NCBI RefSeq assembly: GCF_900696045.1
Contig: NZ_LR216287.1
Coordinates: 1,364,001-1,428,000, forward strand
Direction of reading: 5' to 3'
DNA from: Candidatus Nitrosocosmicus franklandus
Lineage (GTDB): Archaea; Thermoproteota; Nitrososphaeria; Nitrososphaerales; Nitrososphaeraceae
Length of the DNA: 64,000 nucleotides
A program made the translations under genes and the position numbers. Positions 3-17,601 of this stretch are shown here, in pieces. The notes beneath the pieces were generated by a model. It made no database searches. It had not been told where the DNA came from and saw only the letters and a list, made by a program, of their open reading frames with translations. How positions within the stretch are numbered: position 1 is the first letter of the stretch; every line of letters begins with the position of its first letter.

Positions 3-266
3 AAAGATACTTGGATGAAAAAGCTTTCAGACCTCAAATCAAAATATGAAAGGGCAGGGATTTCAATAAGTACGAAAATAGTCAAAGGAACTCATTCGAG
101 TCGGTTTGTTGCTTATAGTATCGTTAAATTTGCTGAAGATGCAAAAGTGGATATGATTACTGTTGGAAGTGTGGGAACCGGAGGTACCCATGAGAAAAAG
201 TCGCTTGGAAGTGTAGTAAGAAACGTTGCAGAGATATCTACTCGACCTGTATTAATAGTACCTTAA
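3..266 (+). CDS. Universal stress protein (UspA family), C-terminal part
   Basis: The frame is open to the left edge, so the N-terminal half lies outside the window. The visible 88 codons contain the C-terminal half of a Usp fold: a VDMITVGSVGTGG strand-loop followed by a KKSLGSVVRNVAEISTRPVLIVP-like end (positions about 50-83 after the first Met). This resembles the glycine-rich nucleotide-binding loop and last beta strand of UspA proteins. An internal Met at base 15 is unlikely to be the true start. Usp proteins are cytoplasmic, small, and often bind ATP; what this one responds to cannot be read from the sequence. It converges with the CoA-transferase on the other strand, about 90 bases away. 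Confidence 0.85.
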   Translation, partial: KDTWMKKLSDLKSKYERAGISISTKIVKGTHSSRFVAYSIVKFAEDAKVDMITVGSVGTGGTHEKKSLGSVVRNVAEISTRPVLIVP

Positions 267-353
267 TAATTTGTTGTCAATAATGGCTTTCAATAGTATT
301 TTTAAATTCACAATAGATCCCGTTACCAAATATCAGCTAAAGGAAAGAGAAGA

Positions 354-2000
354 TCAAAAGAAATCCTTTAAATCATCCTTTATATTCAAAGGAGATTTTC
401 CGAAAAGACGTGCATCCATTTCCTTGATCTTTGTTGGTATTTTAGGCTTAAAATCCATATGTAATAGTATATCTTTTTCAATATCTATACCAGGAGCAAT
501 TTCTTCCAAGACTAATTCAGTATTATCAAGTCTAAATACTGCTCTCTCAGTTATATAGATAATCTCTTGTCCCCATTTTGCTGCTTGATATCCGCTAAAA
601 GAAATTTTGTAAACATTTTCAACAAATTTGTTTATTGGACCATCCTGCAAAATTTTGATTCCCTTATCGTTAACATCAATTTCTTTCTTTCCTCCCCCAG
701 TAAAAGATCCAGCAAAAAAAATTTTGGACACACCACCTGCAATAACAGGAAATCCTCCCGCTCCAAACAACCTATTAGGCAACATAGATGGATTTACGTT
801 TCCAAGCTTATCTATCTGCAAAAATCCCAACGATGCAGCATCTACTATTCCTCCTTCGAAATTGGAAAACATATCAGGAATAGTCGACAATGCAAATGAG
901 CTCATAGCTAACCCAAAATCATTTCCCGATAAAGCAACCCCTCCCCATGGTCCAGATTCAATAACCAAAACCAGAACATCTGCTATGTTTTCCTCACGAA
1001 CTATAGACGAAATTAGCGCAGGAATTCCAATTCCTAAATTTATCAAAACGGGTTCTTTTTTTTGCCTCGCCAGACCGACAAGCTCTAATGTTACTCTCCT
1101 TGCAATAACCTTTTCATACATTTTCGTTTGATTGTGCATTGAAACAATATCTGAATCATAATTTGCTGGAGAGACCACTTCGTTAGATATTCTTGGGTCA
1201 TGATAAATAGATCCAGTCTGCCAATGATATTCACCTGGAGAAATCACAATATGATCAATGAGTGGAAAAGGAATATCAACATCGCGGGGATTGATAGTTC
1301 CAGACTTTACAATCCAGCGTACCTGACATACTACCTTGCCTTGTGCTGGTCTAGCTTTAGTAGCCTGAGCAATACTGAGCACTGTTCCACGTATTCCTTC
1401 AGCTTTCATGGATACATTACCCATTTCATCTGCAAATGAAGCTCGAATTAAAGCAAAATTCGGCTTTGGTGCTTTATAGAATAGGTAATCTTCTCCATCT
1501 AATCCAATTATTTCAACTCTACAGGATAAACGAGATCTTGATAATTCATTCAAAGCTGCATCGTCTTTTCGTGGATCCAAAAATGTATCCAAGCCTATTT
1601 TTGTTAAAAGACCTGGTCTGCCGGATGCTACCTCCCTAAACCAGTAAGCGGTTATCCCAATCGGCCATCCGTAACATTCAATCCTATTATCAATTACTAG
1701 TTTTTGAAACCAAGGAGAGAACCCTAAAAAAGGCATCAAAGAGCCTTTCAGGAAATCTTGACTTTTTTCTTCGTATAATTGCTTGGCTACATGATCCAGT
1801 CCTCGCCCTGGAACAGCAGGAAGGGCATCTGATATTATGAACAGATTCTTTGGATGGCCTGATCTATGATATCTATTGTATAGCTGATTTATCAAATACT
1901 CTGGGGTGGTTGCCATATTAAAACCAGAAATTGCTACAACATCGTTGTCCTGTACAAGATCCAGAATAGAAACATCGTCATTATAGGTTTTAGAAAACAT
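354..2000 (-). CDS. Family I CoA-transferase (acetate/propionate CoA-transferase-like)
   Basis: A 548-residue protein with both halves of a family I CoA-transferase fused in one chain, as in YdiF/propionate CoA-transferase types (about 520-550 residues). The N-terminal half has the VVAISGFNMATTPEYL opening. The C-terminal half has LINLGIGIPALISS and then VIESGPWGG, where Glu348 is the expected catalytic glutamate that forms the glutamyl-CoA thioester. Such enzymes move CoA between short-chain acyl-CoA and carboxylic acids; the substrate cannot be decided here. It stands alone, with a 700-base spacer upstream, and is convergent with the Usp gene. The Met start at base 2000 fits the family's N-terminus. 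No truncation is seen. Confidence 0.88.
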   Translation of the reverse strand: MFSKTYNDDVSILDLVQDNDVVAISGFNMATTPEYLINQLYNRYHRSGHPKNLFIISDALPAVPGRGLDHVAKQLYEEKSQDFLKGSLMPFLGFSPWFQKLVIDNRIECYGWPIGITAYWFREVASGRPGLLTKIGLDTFLDPRKDDAALNELSRSRLSCRVEIIGLDGEDYLFYKAPKPNFALIRASFADEMGNVSMKAEGIRGTVLSIAQATKARPAQGKVVCQVRWIVKSGTINPRDVDIPFPLIDHIVISPGEYHWQTGSIYHDPRISNEVVSPANYDSDIVSMHNQTKMYEKVIARRVTLELVGLARQKKEPVLINLGIGIPALISSIVREENIADVLVLVIESGPWGGVALSGNDFGLAMSSFALSTIPDMFSNFEGGIVDAASLGFLQIDKLGNVNPSMLPNRLFGAGGFPVIAGGVSKIFFAGSFTGGGKKEIDVNDKGIKILQDGPINKFVENVYKISFSGYQAAKWGQEIIYITERAVFRLDNTELVLEEIAPGIDIEKDILLHMDFKPKIPTKIKEMDARLFGKSPLNIKDDLKDFF

Positions 2001-3649: not shown

Positions 3650-4801
3650 TCATAAATCATTGGAAACGGCAGAAGACCGACTTTTGCGAACGGCGTAGTA
3701 AATCGATCCAAATCCCATACTAACTACGATCACTTGTGCTATTTGACCAAAGTAAGGAATAGGAACGATATACAAAAGATTGATTATAACAAATCCGATT
3801 AAAAAGGAAGAAATATTATTAATATCTCTCGATGACTTTTGTCCCAGTAACTCGAGGATTTTTTTTCCTAAAGCAAAAGACACTATCAATGATGAGAAAG
3901 TCAATCCTATGAGAAGAATCAACAAACCAAAAGCTGATACTGGCATCCCAACTATGGTTATTGCCGATAATATTATTACAACCACAAACAAAATGATCAA
4001 TAAAAATCCAATTACCGTGTTTTTGATCAATGATTTTTTCATGACTAATCGAACGGATTCAAATTGATTGGGTAGTAACTTTACGAGTATAACGCCTAAA
4101 ATTGCAAAACCGATAATAAACAAGATACCAAATAAATTCAGCCATCCTTGTATGTCTGGGATTATTGTGTTTTGTCTCATTATCTCTAGATCTCCTACAA
4201 TACCTTTGTTTTGGAAATTGTCAGTCATAGCTACCAACTGTCCGGATATATTGCCCTCGTTGTCAATAGTTCCCCCTGCAACATAAGCGTCCTTAATTAT
4301 AACTGAATTTGGGTTAAAATGTACGTTGTTGGCGGCTAATATGGCATTTGTTGATTTTCCCCCCAAATCGATTGTATTTCCAGAAGATACAATTTTCCCC
4401 GAAACATCTGTATTTACTCTTACTTGTCCTCCGGCAGCAAAAAGATCACCATCGATCGGTGCATTTACATGAATAATATTAGCAAATATTATAGCTCCCT
4501 TGGTTGGGGCATCAATATAAACTGTTTCTCCGAAGATTACCACATCGTCTTCAATCAGTTCTTGTACTGAAATCCGATTCCCCGAAATAACTTGTAAGGC
4601 AAATGAGGGATTACCAGGTATAACTAATAAGGGTACTAAAGTCAGAGTCATCATACAACAAATGAGAAAGAAATACCTTATTCTTACAAATGTCCCAATT
4701 TTACGAGATAAGCAACAATATCTATACAAATCCATGCAAATAGGATAAAAAGATTCCATACAATATACCATCTGTCCAGATTTTATTATACATTGATGCA
4801 C
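3650..4801 (-). CDS. Bactofilin-like/polymer-forming domain membrane protein
   Basis: 383 residues. A hydrophobic segment near residues 45-65 (probable signal anchor) is followed by a beta-helical region of short repeated strands (DDVVIFGETVYIDAPTKGAI, IIHVNAPIDGDLFAAGG, VRVNTDVSGKIVSSG, GQLVAMTDN), the pattern of polymer-forming cytoskeletal (bactofilin-like) domains. The C-terminal 160 residues contain about four to five membrane segments, e.g. LFGILFIIGFAILGVILVKL. The first 35-45 residues look unlike a normal N-terminus (many Cys and Tyr), so the real start may be one of the later Met or Val codons before the signal anchor. Likely an envelope protein with an extracytoplasmic beta-solenoid; the role is not known. 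Confidence 0.75.
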   Translation of the reverse strand: MHQCIIKSGQMVYCMESFYPICMDLYRYCCLSRKIGTFVRIRYFFLICCMMTLTLVPLLVIPGNPSFALQVISGNRISVQELIEDDVVIFGETVYIDAPTKGAIIFANIIHVNAPIDGDLFAAGGQVRVNTDVSGKIVSSGNTIDLGGKSTNAILAANNVHFNPNSVIIKDAYVAGGTIDNEGNISGQLVAMTDNFQNKGIVGDLEIMRQNTIIPDIQGWLNLFGILFIIGFAILGVILVKLLPNQFESVRLVMKKSLIKNTVIGFLLIILFVVVIILSAITIVGMPVSAFGLLILLIGLTFSSLIVSFALGKKILELLGQKSSRDINNISSFLIGFVIINLLYIVPIPYFGQIAQVIVVSMGFGSIYYAVRKSRSSAVSNDL

Positions 4802-6066: not shown

Positions 6067-6142
6067 ACAATGTTTACTTTAGACTTGTTAATAAGATTTA
6101 GAAATCATACTATTATTAGCCTAAGCCTACCTCTATTGAACC

Positions 6143-6174
6143 CACAATATATCGACTTAGGATTAGAGGTTTGT
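6143..6174. repeat. Diverged copy of the tRNA-Pro 3'-flank repeat
   Basis: This stretch aligns to the repeat at 8096-8120 with one small gap (17 of 21 identical after the gap, including agaggtttgt) and more weakly to the 3' end of tRNA-Pro at 9806-9830. I read it as an old attachment-site scar. The match is short and could be partly chance. Confidence 0.4.
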
Positions 6175-6438
6175 TTAACAAGAATGTCATAATTACAGGT
6201 ACAATCTTGTTTATTGTTGATGATCTATTCGGAAATGGATTGGACCCAGTTAGGTAATTATGGATTTGTAATGCAAGAGAAGACACCTTTGGATGTATAT
6301 CGATAAACTTTCAGATACACCGTAACGTGTTCGTCCCCAGCATTACAGTATTATTGTATATGATCTATAGTCAGAAACGTAAATTTATTTAGTCACTGTC
6401 TTTGAAAATTTAAATATGAATCTGTCACTTTGCCCATA

Positions 6439-7046
6439 ATGAGTATATTATTTCACAAGGGCTTTGCAGATTATTCCATACCTTTATTGATTATATCCAT
6501 CATGGCCATGTCTGTCTTGATGTATGTCCTTAATCAGTCTTGATGTATGTCCTTAACCCCATCACTTCTTTAGCCACTACTCAACCTTTAAACAACAATA
6601 CTACTACTACCATTAATCCTGATCTAGAAGTAGAATCTATAACTAATGCATTTGGAGAACCATTTTACATTCTAAACGACTCCAAAAATACAGGCCATGA
6701 AGTCATTGGCCTAGATCCACAACAGACAAAGAGTTCCTATATAGCTCAAGGGAATATGCAAGGATTAGGAAACGTAACTGAATATGGTATTTTTATTACA
6801 ACATATTCATCACCAATTAGTAGTAGCGTTGGTAAAGGCTTAATAGTCAAAGGTGATCAAGTTGTAACGTTTACCGCCCAGGATATAGGAAGTTATGATA
6901 AAGATGGTAATCTATTACTTAAAGGCGCAATCAATTTCGAATCTGATGATCCGGAAATGTCTAAAATTAATGGAAAGATGGGATTCTACATCTATTGGGA
7001 ATCCACCAATGGTACTTATTGGACCAAGACATGGTTATGGGATTGA
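6439..7046 (+). pseudogene. Secreted protein whose signal peptide is split off by a 23-bp duplication
   Basis: Reading from the ATG at 6439 gives a hydrophobic leader (MSILFHKGFADYSIPLLIIS...) that ends at a TGA at 6541. A second frame starting near 6540 gives the mature part (168 residues: Asn/Thr-rich linker, then a beta-rich domain ending YWTKTWLWD). Twenty bases at 6514-6533 recur exactly at 6537-6556, a period of 23. Removing one 23-base unit joins leader and body in one frame (...MSVLMYVLNPITSLATT). The gene is therefore frameshifted in the signal peptide; the body could only be made from a TTG or ATG at 6540-6543 and would not be exported. Function of the domain unknown. The event looks recent because the body is intact. 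Confidence 0.75.
6514..6556. repeat. 23-bp-period tandem duplication
   Basis: Two direct copies of a 20-base sequence spaced with period 23. They cause the frameshift in the overlapping secreted-protein gene and could be lost or regained by slippage or recombination. Confidence 0.9.
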
Positions 7047-7239
7047 CTCCACTCCCCTAACCAGCATGTTTTTTTCTGAATTTATTCATTTTTGTTTTTG
7101 AAGGTATGCACAAATTTCTCCAATACTATAACCATATCTTTTTTCCAACGTAGATATTGAATTTGAATAAAAGAGCTAGCTAGTCGAAGATTCATGAACC
7201 AAGTAAATTTGACATGCAACAAAACAAAATGGATTCGAC

Positions 7240-7914
7240 GGCTCTGTTCAGTTAACGATAAGCCTATAGCTTGAAAGCATTCCATTTCTTTTATGCTTAC
7301 TAGAAACAGAACGCCTTCAAAGTATGTATATTATGGGTTGCATTTGTACTTTTCAGGCCTATCCTTAAGGAAAGCCTCGGAAAGATTATCTCAGATATAC
7401 AAGAGAAATCACGTTTCCATTTGGAATTGGATTCAAAAGTACAAGCCTCAAAAGCTAAGTCAACTAGAAGAAGAGTTCTAGAGTATATAATAGATGAAAC
7501 GATGTTAAAGGTGGGATCAGAATACATCTGGCTCTGGGTTGCAACTGAACCAGACAGAAAACAGGCAAATTCTCGCACTGTCTATCTCTCTAAAGAAAGA
7601 AACATGTTTGTAGCTGAAAGATTCATTTCAGGTTTAGTCAAGATTCATGGAATTCATACAGTTTCGACTGATGATGGAGGTACTTGGTATCCAATGGCCT
7701 GTAGATTCTTAAATCTCGATCATCACATTCATTCCTCTCTGGAGAAAAGTCTGATTGAAAGAAAGATGCAATACATAAAGGATAGAACCGAAAGTTTCGA
7801 TGACTACTTTCCTTGTAGAATAAAGAATTGCAAGTTAAAGCATGTACACAATTGGCTGCGGCTCTTTGTAGACTATCATAACAATGAAATAAAACATATT
7901 AAGTGAACAGAGCC
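7240..7914 (+). mobile_element. IS6-like insertion sequence with 8-bp target duplication
   Basis: The element is 675 bases long. Its ends are inverted repeats: ggctctgttca at 7240-7250 matches the complement of 7904-7914 perfectly, and the match continues to 16 bases with one mismatch. Directly outside, gattcgac occurs at 7232-7239 and again at 7915-7922: an 8-bp target duplication, the size usual for IS6 family elements. The single transposase gene inside is frameshifted. The perfect target duplication indicates a recent insertion. Confidence 0.92.
7293..7906 (+). pseudogene. IS6-like DDE transposase, frameshifted (-1)
   Basis: Frame one (7293-7481) encodes the N-terminal helix-turn-helix region, ending WNWIQKYKPQKLSQLEEEF. 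The adjoining frame (7421-7906, shifted by -1) encodes the DDE catalytic domain. The acidic residues are present: Asp in YIIDETMLKVGSEYIWLWV, Asp in STDDGGTWYP, and Glu in SLIERKMQYIKDR. Joining the frames in the overlap at about 7435-7480 gives a protein of roughly 200 residues, a little short but complete for the family. Two CAAAAG stretches in the overlap might allow ribosomal slippage, but a simple inactivating indel is equally possible. Stop at 7904-7906 overlaps the right inverted repeat. Confidence 0.85.
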
Positions 7915-7922
7915 GATTCGAC

Positions 7923-8379
7923 TATTCAACTCATTTAAATTAAAGAATGGATCTGGGAGAAAGAGATTGATTTCGTCTGTTCATTGGTCATAGGTTTACG
8001 TTGTTCTAATGCCACGATAAATGTTTTCGATCGGACATTATTTGTTTGGTCGAAATTTGACGCATTTCATAATGGAATATGGTGTTCCATAAAGCGACAA
8101 TATTGATGTGGGACTAGAGGTTTGTGAAACAAATTTGACACAAATAATGGATTTTACCTTTGTTTATCAAAAATGATTTTGGAGAAGATAGGTAGGATTT
8201 ATTTCCAATGTTAGATATTATAATATGATCGCGCTATAGCTTATTTCTATAATGATTGATAATATTATCGTGCTCTATTCAGCTCTACGCTTATGAGTAG
8301 GTGCAAAATAGAACAAGAAACTATAATTTTGGCGTTATGATTGATAAATAGACAGATGTCTCAATAAGAAGTCTAAGAT
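7923..8379. other. Spacer containing a tRNA-Pro-like scar
   Basis: No coding frame seen. The only notable element is the 25-base repeat at 8096-8120, listed separately. Confidence 0.5.
8096..8120. repeat. Copy of the tRNA-Pro 3' end and its downstream flank
   Basis: These 25 bases match 9806-9830 at 23 positions. The 9806-9830 copy is the last part of the tRNA-Pro gene plus 13 bases beyond it. A duplicated tRNA 3' end in direct orientation is the usual signature of an attachment site of an integrated element. The interval between the copies (about 1.7 kb) contains only the FAD oxidoreductase gene. Confidence 0.65.
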
Positions 8380-9789
8380 ATGTACAATAAGCTTGAGCAT
8401 AATGTCGCAATAATAATAGGTGGTGGAATTGCAGGATTATTGGCTGCAAGAGTATTATCTGGTCATTTTAAACAAGTATTAGTAATAGAGAAGGATAAAT
8501 ATCCGTCTCAAGCCGGACCTAGGAATGGAACTCCTCAAGCCAATCACGTTCACATATTGTTGATTAAAGGTAAGGAAATCCTTCTGAATTTGTTTCCAAA
8601 TATCGAACAAGAATTGGTAGCCAAAGGAGCTCAGATTGTAAACCTTACAAAAGATGTTGATTATTATGTTGGAACTGGTTACTCGATAAAATTTGATTCC
8701 AATCTAACTACAATAGCTTGTACAAGACAACTTTTAGAACACGAGATAAGAAATGAAATCTCAAAATTTCCCAATGTGAACATACATGAGAATACCAGAG
8801 CAACAGGATTGATCATTGCAAGAGACAAAGATACAGGATTGAGTACTTGCAAAGGGGTTACAGTGTACTCAGCTGACACAAATTCTGAGGAAGCCATTAC
8901 AGGAGACTTGGTTGTGGATACAAGCGGACGCGAATCTAAAATCGCAGAATGGCTTGAGCAGCTTGGTTATGACGAACCAAAGAAGACGGTCGTTAATTCG
9001 TATATTGGCTATTCTACTTGCTGGTTTAAGCCGACATTTGAGCAGACTGCTGTTGGCGACGTTGACGACGATAACAAACCTATTATCAAACCAATCATAG
9101 TATTGACAAATCCGCCTTCAAATCCTTATATGGGGATTATCTATCCTGTTGAAGGCTCATTATGGTTAGTTGGAATTCTAGGAATAGGAAAAAATTATCC
9201 CCCAACCGACAAACAAGGTTTTCTAGAATACACCAAGAAATTAGAGACTCTTGATATCTACAATACTGTAGAAGACTTTGAGTTAAGCGGTCCAATTTAT
9301 GGATATAGAACAACAGGAAGCCGACAGTATCATTATGAAAGAATGAAATCGTGGCCAGAAAACTTTATCGCATATGGCGACTCTGTTTCTTCATTCAATC
9401 CTTTTTATGGTCAAGGAATTACTGTGGCATGTATAGAAGCTGTCACTTTGGATAAAACCTTAAGAGCACATAAAAAAAGAAATAGAAATTTGCTAGGTTT
9501 CTCTACCATTTTTCAGAAAAAGATTTCAAAAATAAACACACTCCCGTGGTTATTGGGAACAAGTGAAGATTTTAGATGGCCCTCAACTGAAGGAATAAAA
9601 CCCGACATTTTTACAAGGTATATTCAAAAATATTCCCATCGAGTGTTGCTTATAACTCCAAATAGTAAAATTGCAGCCAAATCTTTTTTTGAGGTTATGC
9701 ACATGTTAAGATCCCCTTTAATTCTTTTTCATCCTTTTATTTTAATTCGTATTGTTATTGAAACCCTAAAGGGACATACTAGCAAATAG
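8380..9789 (+). CDS. FAD-dependent monooxygenase/geranylgeranyl-reductase-like oxidoreductase
   Basis: 469 residues. An N-terminal Rossmann FAD site is clear (IIIGGGIAGLLAARVL, then VIEKD as the second-strand acidic end). The motif PRNGTPQANHVHILL follows, and the second FAD motif YGDSVSSFNPFYGQGITVA lies near residues 325-345, as in the aromatic hydroxylase / halogenase / geranylgeranyl reductase superfamily. The protein looks complete. The substrate cannot be deduced; similar proteins hydroxylate or reduce lipids and quinone-like molecules. It is the only gene between two copies of the tRNA-Pro 3' end, which suggests arrival with an integrating element. Confidence 0.8.
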   Translation: MYNKLEHNVAIIIGGGIAGLLAARVLSGHFKQVLVIEKDKYPSQAGPRNGTPQANHVHILLIKGKEILLNLFPNIEQELVAKGAQIVNLTKDVDYYVGTGYSIKFDSNLTTIACTRQLLEHEIRNEISKFPNVNIHENTRATGLIIARDKDTGLSTCKGVTVYSADTNSEEAITGDLVVDTSGRESKIAEWLEQLGYDEPKKTVVNSYIGYSTCWFKPTFEQTAVGDVDDDNKPIIKPIIVLTNPPSNPYMGIIYPVEGSLWLVGILGIGKNYPPTDKQGFLEYTKKLETLDIYNTVEDFELSGPIYGYRTTGSRQYHYERMKSWPENFIAYGDSVSSFNPFYGQGITVACIEAVTLDKTLRAHKKRNRNLLGFSTIFQKKISKINTLPWLLGTSEDFRWPSTEGIKPDIFTRYIQKYSHRVLLITPNSKIAAKSFFEVMHMLRSPLILFHPFILIRIVIETLKGHTSK

Positions 9790-9818
9790 AATGTAGATAA
9801 TTAGTGACAATATTGATG

Positions 9819-9909
9819 TGGGGCCAGAGGGATTCGAACCCTCGACCGCCAGCGCCCCGGGCTTATACCCAAAATTGGATGGTATCCTGCCAAGCTAGAC
9901 GATAGCCCC
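9819..9909 (-). tRNA. tRNA-Pro (GGG), with a probable 17-base intron
   Basis: Read on the minus strand the 91 bases fold as a tRNA: acceptor ggggcta/tggcccc with discriminator A, D-stem gtct/ggat, and T-arm gaggg-ttcgaat-ccctc. The anticodon arm works only if 17 bases (tccaattttgggtataa) are removed after position 29. That restores a perfect ccagc/gctgg stem around the loop ccggggc, giving anticodon GGG (Pro). The intron is then at the non-canonical position 29/30, a type of site known in Thaumarchaeota and Crenarchaeota. Position 33 would be C instead of U, which is odd; the identity is likely but not certain. The CCA end is not encoded. Confidence 0.75.
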
Positions 9910-16899: not shown

Positions 16900-17601
16900 T
16901 TAAACAAGTTTGCGAATCTCAACAGCCTTATTTGCCTCTAATATAGGCCTTGCATTCTCAAAAGGCAAAATTGCAACATCGTCCTTTTTGAAAGGACCAT
17001 ATTTGTTCATGTTTATCCCAACAAATTGATCCATAGAATCTAGAAACCTAACCATTACAAAGTTCTCATTTATTGAGGAAACGATTTTTTCTAAAGTTTT
17101 TGGTTTACCATCTAACAGCATCTTTAGAATAACATCTATTCGTTTTTCTCTTTCCCTATTGCCATAGAAAATATATTTTTCCTCATCGGTAAGATTAGAA
17201 TATTCGAAACTTTCTGGCGAAGATTTTGACCTATTGAAAATTTTTTTGCATCTTAATATAAAAAGTAATGAAGTTAACTTGGTAATCATAGTTATCAATT
17301 CAGAATTGATTTGCTTAGAAACTGCAGCTATCAGAGCATCATCGGAGGTATAATTGTCATTGTCATTGTCATTGTCATTGTCACTATCTCCATCGTCATA
17401 GTCATCAACAACATCATCTTTAACAGAAAACTCTGATTCGTCTCTTTCATTTTGTTCTTTTAACAAATAAATCAGATTTGCAATATTTTGGTAAAGATTC
17501 TGTGGTATAGGTTGAGGACCATCGGTGAGTTGTATTTCTTTCTTTAAGACATTGTGAATTTCATCGATATTAATCAGGTTTTGTATCTTATTCTGATCCA
17601 T
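16900..17601 (-). CDS. GINS complex subunit (Gins51-like)
   Basis: 233 residues. The C-terminal B-domain is the clearest part: FVMVRFLDSMDQFVGIN, then KYGPFKKDDVAILPFENARP, the typical end of archaeal Gins51 (Sld5/Psf1-type). The N-terminal 140 residues are helical (A-domain) and are interrupted at about residues 68-85 by an acidic Asp-Asn tract (DGDSDNDNDNDNDN). GINS bridges MCM helicase and polymerase/GAN in the archaeal replisome. The acidic tract is coded by a short tandem DNA repeat and is likely a flexible loop. Divergently placed from glnA. Confidence 0.85.
   Translation of the reverse strand: MDQNKIQNLINIDEIHNVLKKEIQLTDGPQPIPQNLYQNIANLIYLLKEQNERDESEFSVKDDVVDDYDDGDSDNDNDNDNDNYTSDDALIAAVSKQINSELITMITKLTSLLFILRCKKIFNRSKSSPESFEYSNLTDEEKYIFYGNREREKRIDVILKMLLDGKPKTLEKIVSSINENFVMVRFLDSMDQFVGINMNKYGPFKKDDVAILPFENARPILEANKAVEIRKLV
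17353..17382. repeat. attgtc hexamer repeat (5 units) in the GINS gene
   Basis: Five exact attgtc units; on the coding strand they give alternating Asp-Asn. Length changes here keep the frame. Confidence 0.95.

Follow-up and report, generated by a model that had tools for sequence, protein, structure and literature searches.

Why does a small gene of an ammonia-oxidizing soil archaeon begin with an export-type leader that is out of register with the protein following it? The question arose in the genome of "Ca. Nitrosocosmicus franklandus" C13 (here G000; one contig, 2,836,447 bases), of which a stretch of 64,000 nucleotides (G000:C1:1364001-1428000) was analyzed. This whole stretch is called the window, and positions refer to it. 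An earlier note on this DNA had attributed the break to a 23-bp duplication that switches off export of a secreted protein and might revert by slippage.

Results

Two tandem units set the reading frame

The two 23-nt units (Table 1) follow each other directly (spacing 23) and are identical at 22 of 23 positions (96%), with one T/A difference; 20 consecutive bases (6514-6533 and 6537-6556) are exactly the same in both, as had been claimed. A whole-genome search that allowed up to two mismatches found the exact 20-mer at no other site. An autocorrelation scan of the window and 20 loci (369,289 bases in all; unit length 14-120 nt, similarity of 90% or more, low-complexity rows left out) gave this repeat as the sole row for the window. 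Tandem Repeats Finder parsed the array as a 12-nt period of 68% (6508-6551), which is poorer than the 23-nt parse.

With the leader ATG at 6439 taken as frame 0, the mature domain is read in frame +2, that is, out of register. As 23 equals 2 modulo 3, loss of one unit would place leader and mature domain in one frame, and the claim that removing a unit restores a continuous frame thus holds by arithmetic. A repeat whose number of units sets the reading frame, the mark of a phase-variable (contingency) locus, is therefore present; the mark of a protein exported by a signal peptide, a hydrophobic leader read in the same frame as the mature domain, is not found in the window gene.

Table 1. Features of the locus (window positions)
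Feature	Position	Strand	Basis and remarks
TATA-like promoter element TTTAAATA	6409-6416	+	ends 22 nt before the leader ATG; match to motif of relatives
Leader ORF, 34 aa, signal-peptide-like hydrophobic core	6439-6543	+	ORF list and hydropathy; TGA 6541-6543 inside second unit
First 23-nt unit	6511-6533	+	direct-repeat search of the window
Second 23-nt unit	6534-6556	+	direct-repeat search of the window
Mature-domain ORF, 167 aa from ATG 6543 or 168 aa from TTG 6540	6543-7046	+	ORF list; ATG overlaps leader stop (TGATG)
Insertion sequence, 675 bp	7240-7914	+	8-bp target duplication GATTCGAC at 7232-7239 and 7915-7922
25-nt direct repeat of tRNA-like gene 3′ end and flank, att-like	8096-8120	+	2 mismatches
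Other copy of the 25-nt repeat, 3′ end of tRNA-like gene	9806-9830	+	tRNA-like gene on minus strand

The hydropathy of the leader reaches a maximum of 2.69, and similarly hydrophobic ORFs arose by chance in 18 of 3000 random window segments and in 19 of 1000 shuffles. The leader is probably a genuine gene start, a chance ORF being unlikely. In all eight homologues from the genus, a TATA-like element ends 23-26 nt ahead of the ATG; the best match of the window element to their motif is 11 of 14 positions, which shuffled sequence equalled in 20 of 2000 cases at that spacing and in 94 of 2000 at any spacing. The position of the element would fit a (nearly) leaderless transcript. The leader peptides of the relatives align only weakly with that of the window (33 to 788 of 1000 shuffles, according to the relative, reach the same score); the case for homology of the leaders is therefore one of position and promoter, not of similarity between the proteins.

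Two further perfect repeats were recorded: an (ATTGTC)5 hexanucleotide array at 17353-17383, within an ORF (16900-17601, minus strand; Tandem Repeats Finder), and an array of nine 27-nt repeats in another genome (G013, L070:3667-3909).

Homologues mostly carry leader and mature domain in one frame

Close homologues are present in 8 of the 14 other same-genus genomes searched, at 59-63% identity, and in two genomes of another genus of the family, at 44%. Among 70 family genomes (its own included, which gave the only exact match), no homologue exceeds 63% identity, and a search of genome contigs returned nothing nearer to the window type. Seven of the eight close homologues of the genus, and both of those from the other genus, have a continuous frame from leader to mature domain. 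A tandem duplication at the leader (12-60 nt, at least 85% alike, between 60 nt upstream and 640 nt downstream of the ATG) was seen in none of the eight genus homologues. Since the homologues are mostly in one frame and the duplication is absent from these eight, the two-copy state is derived. The postulated frame break between an export-type leader and its mature domain is thereby borne out; relatives sharing the two-copy arrangement, named in the earlier note as the case against it, were looked for among the homologues and did not appear. A derived frame break against intact homologues is characteristic of a pseudogene. Conservation of the repeat, which would support (without strictly defining) a contingency locus, was observed in none of the eight.

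Across the family, 39 of 43 scanned loci could be located; the scan left aside L003, the third and weak match of G000, as well as matches that have no locus. With the leader called by a simple hydropathy cut-off, 29 of the 39 have an in-frame leader, seven are leaderless short forms (L017, L024, L025, and L027-L030), and three have the leader out of frame, namely the window gene, that of G009, and L018, which is more distant. The short forms for the most part have their own common N-terminus (MLGE/MLGD) and look like a subfamily apart. In L018 (around 1365-1530; G028), a lipoprotein-like leader lies in another frame than the barrel; this genome is a draft, and the break could be an error.

In G009 (L007, G009:C2:109705-109738, minus strand), the frame is broken by +2 inside the leader, where six C stand against four in G005 and G011; the tract was confirmed at that place in the G009 genome. 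This break is independent of the duplication in the window. Five ORFs near the tract are of similar length to those of G013 (152/152, 490/493, 112/112, 226/223, and 655/655 aa), which speaks against a generally error-rich assembly there. The tract reflects either real slippage or a homopolymer error.

The window protein itself is divergent. Its end branch measures 0.47 (median of the end branches, 0.096; one outgroup row is longer, at 0.69), and 8 of the 54 columns invariant in 10 relatives are changed. Leaving out any other genus sequence gave 0 to 2 changes in 46-48 invariant columns, a lenient comparison in that most of the sequences left out have closer sisters. The long branch and the changed columns would fit weakened constraint or a deeper lineage; because of this branch and an unsettled position in the tree, the gene may be acquired, a deep copy, or fast-evolving.

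The gene lies away from the site used by its relatives

None of 12 other window genes tested has a match in the stretches around 10 homologues, three of which lie on short contigs. In G000, the equivalent region (around 850 kb) is without the gene and contains a copy of the insertion sequence family of the window; a search for a relic of the gene at this site (844-860 kb) gave none (best E values of 0.056 with the G006 homologue and 1.6 with the window protein as query). The gene thus stands away from the usual site of its relatives, in a block absent from G006. In G006, the outer window genes lie near each other, with no match between them to the membrane protein (3650-4801), the hydrolase, or the FAD enzyme. 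Short DNA remnants there match both ends of the hydrolase, which was therefore probably lost from G006, and window 6120-9805 may be an insertion in G000. The 25-nt att-like repeat, of which the genome has just two copies, was not matched in 100 shuffles. A weaker 47-nt repeat (72%) pairs 6149-6195 with 8100-8146 and lies near window 6119, where homology to G006 resumes. At the matching place, ARAGORN reported a tRNA-Lys in G013 and unnamed tRNAs in G006, G003, and G002, and no tRNA either in G008 (L075) or in the window itself. The block 6149-9830, with a weaker third copy of the att-like repeat near 6149, is missing next to the tRNA of G006 and suggests a possible insertion beside a tRNA.

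The insertion sequence (Table 1) begins 193 bp past the stop codon of the gene, downstream and outside of it. Its family numbers 41 near full-length matches in the genome, the window copy included (40 of 81 first-look candidates were scored). The element carries a DDE domain (DDE_Tnp_IS240, just under the Pfam cut-off); its first motif and the DDE part are in different frames in 10 of 12 copies read and in the same frame in two, which represents either programmed frameshifting or decay. The earlier note had taken this insertion as a sign of local instability, a view not supported for a downstream element with its own 8-bp target duplications and so large a family. Since it has its own target duplication and lies outside the gene, a duplication driven by the insertion sequence was rejected.

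Modeling predicts a barrel fold for the mature domain

After a disordered N-terminus, an eight-stranded beta-barrel is predicted for the mature domain (mean pLDDT 87.8), and the predicted fold is calycin-like. The best matching solved folds are barrels of unknown function (3g7g, Z 13.8; 4pux, Z 13.2; 3c5o, Z 12.7) and a fungal enzyme (6jjs, Z 13.5), followed by DUF3237, Diels-Alderase, DUF3224, and allene oxide cyclase (AOC) barrels. Among these, DUF3237 (9m2y; Z 10.8, rmsd 2.6, 115 aligned residues), DUF3224 (2ooj; Z 9.7), and AOC (4h6c; Z 8.7) have a like fold; in these rows, and in those of 3g7g and 4pux, sequence identity with the window protein is at most 16%. The modeled protein thus has the fold of a DUF3237/DUF3224-type calycin barrel, and no Pfam family, these two included, matched its sequence at E values up to 0.1. 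NCBIfam likewise gave no match up to 0.1, Foldseek with the window barrel none at E ≤ 0.001, and nothing convincing as to function emerged from Pfam, NCBIfam, or the sequences of solved structures. The predicted fold as such does not show a function.

Discussion

The explanation considered reasonably probable is that a gene for a small exported beta-barrel protein gained a 23-bp duplication in its leader, which ends native translation after 34 residues, and that the sequenced genotype carries a recent frameshift abolishing export. Replication slippage would probably have made the second unit inside the leader-coding region; since 23 is not divisible by 3, translation initiated at the native start would end after 34 residues, the exported form would not be made in this genotype, and export would be lost, pointing to a recent loss of function in this strain. 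For slippage, removing one unit again would be mechanistically easy, and some leaderless protein may arise through re-initiation at the overlapping ATG. From the sequence, export is likely off. The duplication is an ordinary kind of mutation, and G009 is a modestly interesting hint.

The mature ORF contains no stop and no further frame break. When the age of the duplication is taken from the one difference in 2 × 23 sites (∼0.02 changes per site and copy), about 0.5 stops are expected in the mature frame and the probability of finding none is 0.59 (2.4 and 0.09, respectively, at 0.1 changes per site); at the implied age, the open frame is therefore uninformative as to whether it is used. Through the TGATG overlap, the protein could remain in use, and this leads to an alternative in which the gene is split: the leader ends at its TGA, and translationally coupled restart at ATG 6543 yields a cytoplasmic barrel of 167 aa. 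Leaderless short forms do exist in the family (7 of 39 located loci), but most of these have their own N-terminus and look like a subfamily apart. As TTGATG is part of the repeated unit, the overlap arises automatically, as a by-product of the repeated letters, and no Shine-Dalgarno-like motif was seen by eye before 6543. We regard such coupling as unlikely. Ribosome bypassing between the two units was also considered; nothing speaks for it beyond the repeat itself.

Reversal by slippage is plausible for adjacent repeats, and one and two units may interchange so that part of the population exports the barrel. Such reversible on/off (phase) variation would be in line with the near-perfect adjacent repeat of 20-23 nt, with the open mature frame, and with the independent frame break in the homologous leader of a second species, G009, where the ORF lengths around the tract argue against many errors. 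Against it stand the mere two units, the absence of the duplication from all eight genus homologues, the single genome of the species among those searched, and the fact that no archaeal slippage switch was found in the literature searched (title and opening of the abstract). On balance, interchange of this kind appears unlikely. The bolder proposal that the leader of the barrel protein is a frame-switching hot spot in Nitrosocosmicus, an archaeal contingency locus in an ammonia oxidizer without an S-layer at which the C13 duplication and the G009 C tract are independently "off," is decidedly improbable. IonTorrent sequencing errs at homopolymers. If G009 is "Ca. N. arcticus" Kfb, a name that is inferred, the C tract may be such an error, that genome having been assembled from Illumina and IonTorrent reads (PMC6657660).

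As to the window, an error of assembly or sequencing would leave the gene with one unit in reality. Errors do not typically take the form of a 23-nt duplication whose units show an internal T/A difference. The C13 genome is a hybrid assembly, built from MinION reads and 11.9 million Illumina reads with an average length of 147 bp (PMC6776761), and the reads are public (PRJNA530370); hybrid assembly leaves some room for error, but at that average length the 46-bp array fits inside, and can be spanned by, one short read. An artifact is thus very improbable.

Known switches illustrate what the locus shares with them and where it differs. In Streptococcus pneumoniae, capsule genes phase-vary by spontaneous tandem duplications, the precise loss of which restores the frame; as in the window gene, a short tandem duplication in the coding region breaks the frame, but reversion is known there, whereas none has been observed for the window gene, and gene and domain of life are different. 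In opa of Neisseria, many pentamer repeats in the leader undergo proven switching; the frame likewise changes in the leader-coding sequence of an exported protein, but the window has only two 23-nt units. Measured against the classes set out in the GeneTack survey (77 archaeal genomes, one of them thaumarchaeal; PMC3711429), the window gene resembles a pseudogene; it bears the marks of a nearby tandem repeat (phase variation) and of stop/start proximity (coupling), but is without a cluster of homologues frameshifted at a conserved site. In a 2025 review of phase variation (PMC11868660), archaea come up in the one passage found, as a direction for future extension. The relevant parts of a paper on promoter repeats in Mycobacterium tuberculosis (PMC12817950) and of one on Nitrosocosmicus (PMC11559005) left the reading of the window unchanged. 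At present, the case is that of a single soil-archaeal gene with a broken frame; evidence of switching, if obtained, would extend slippage-based on/off variation to an ammonia-oxidizing archaeon.
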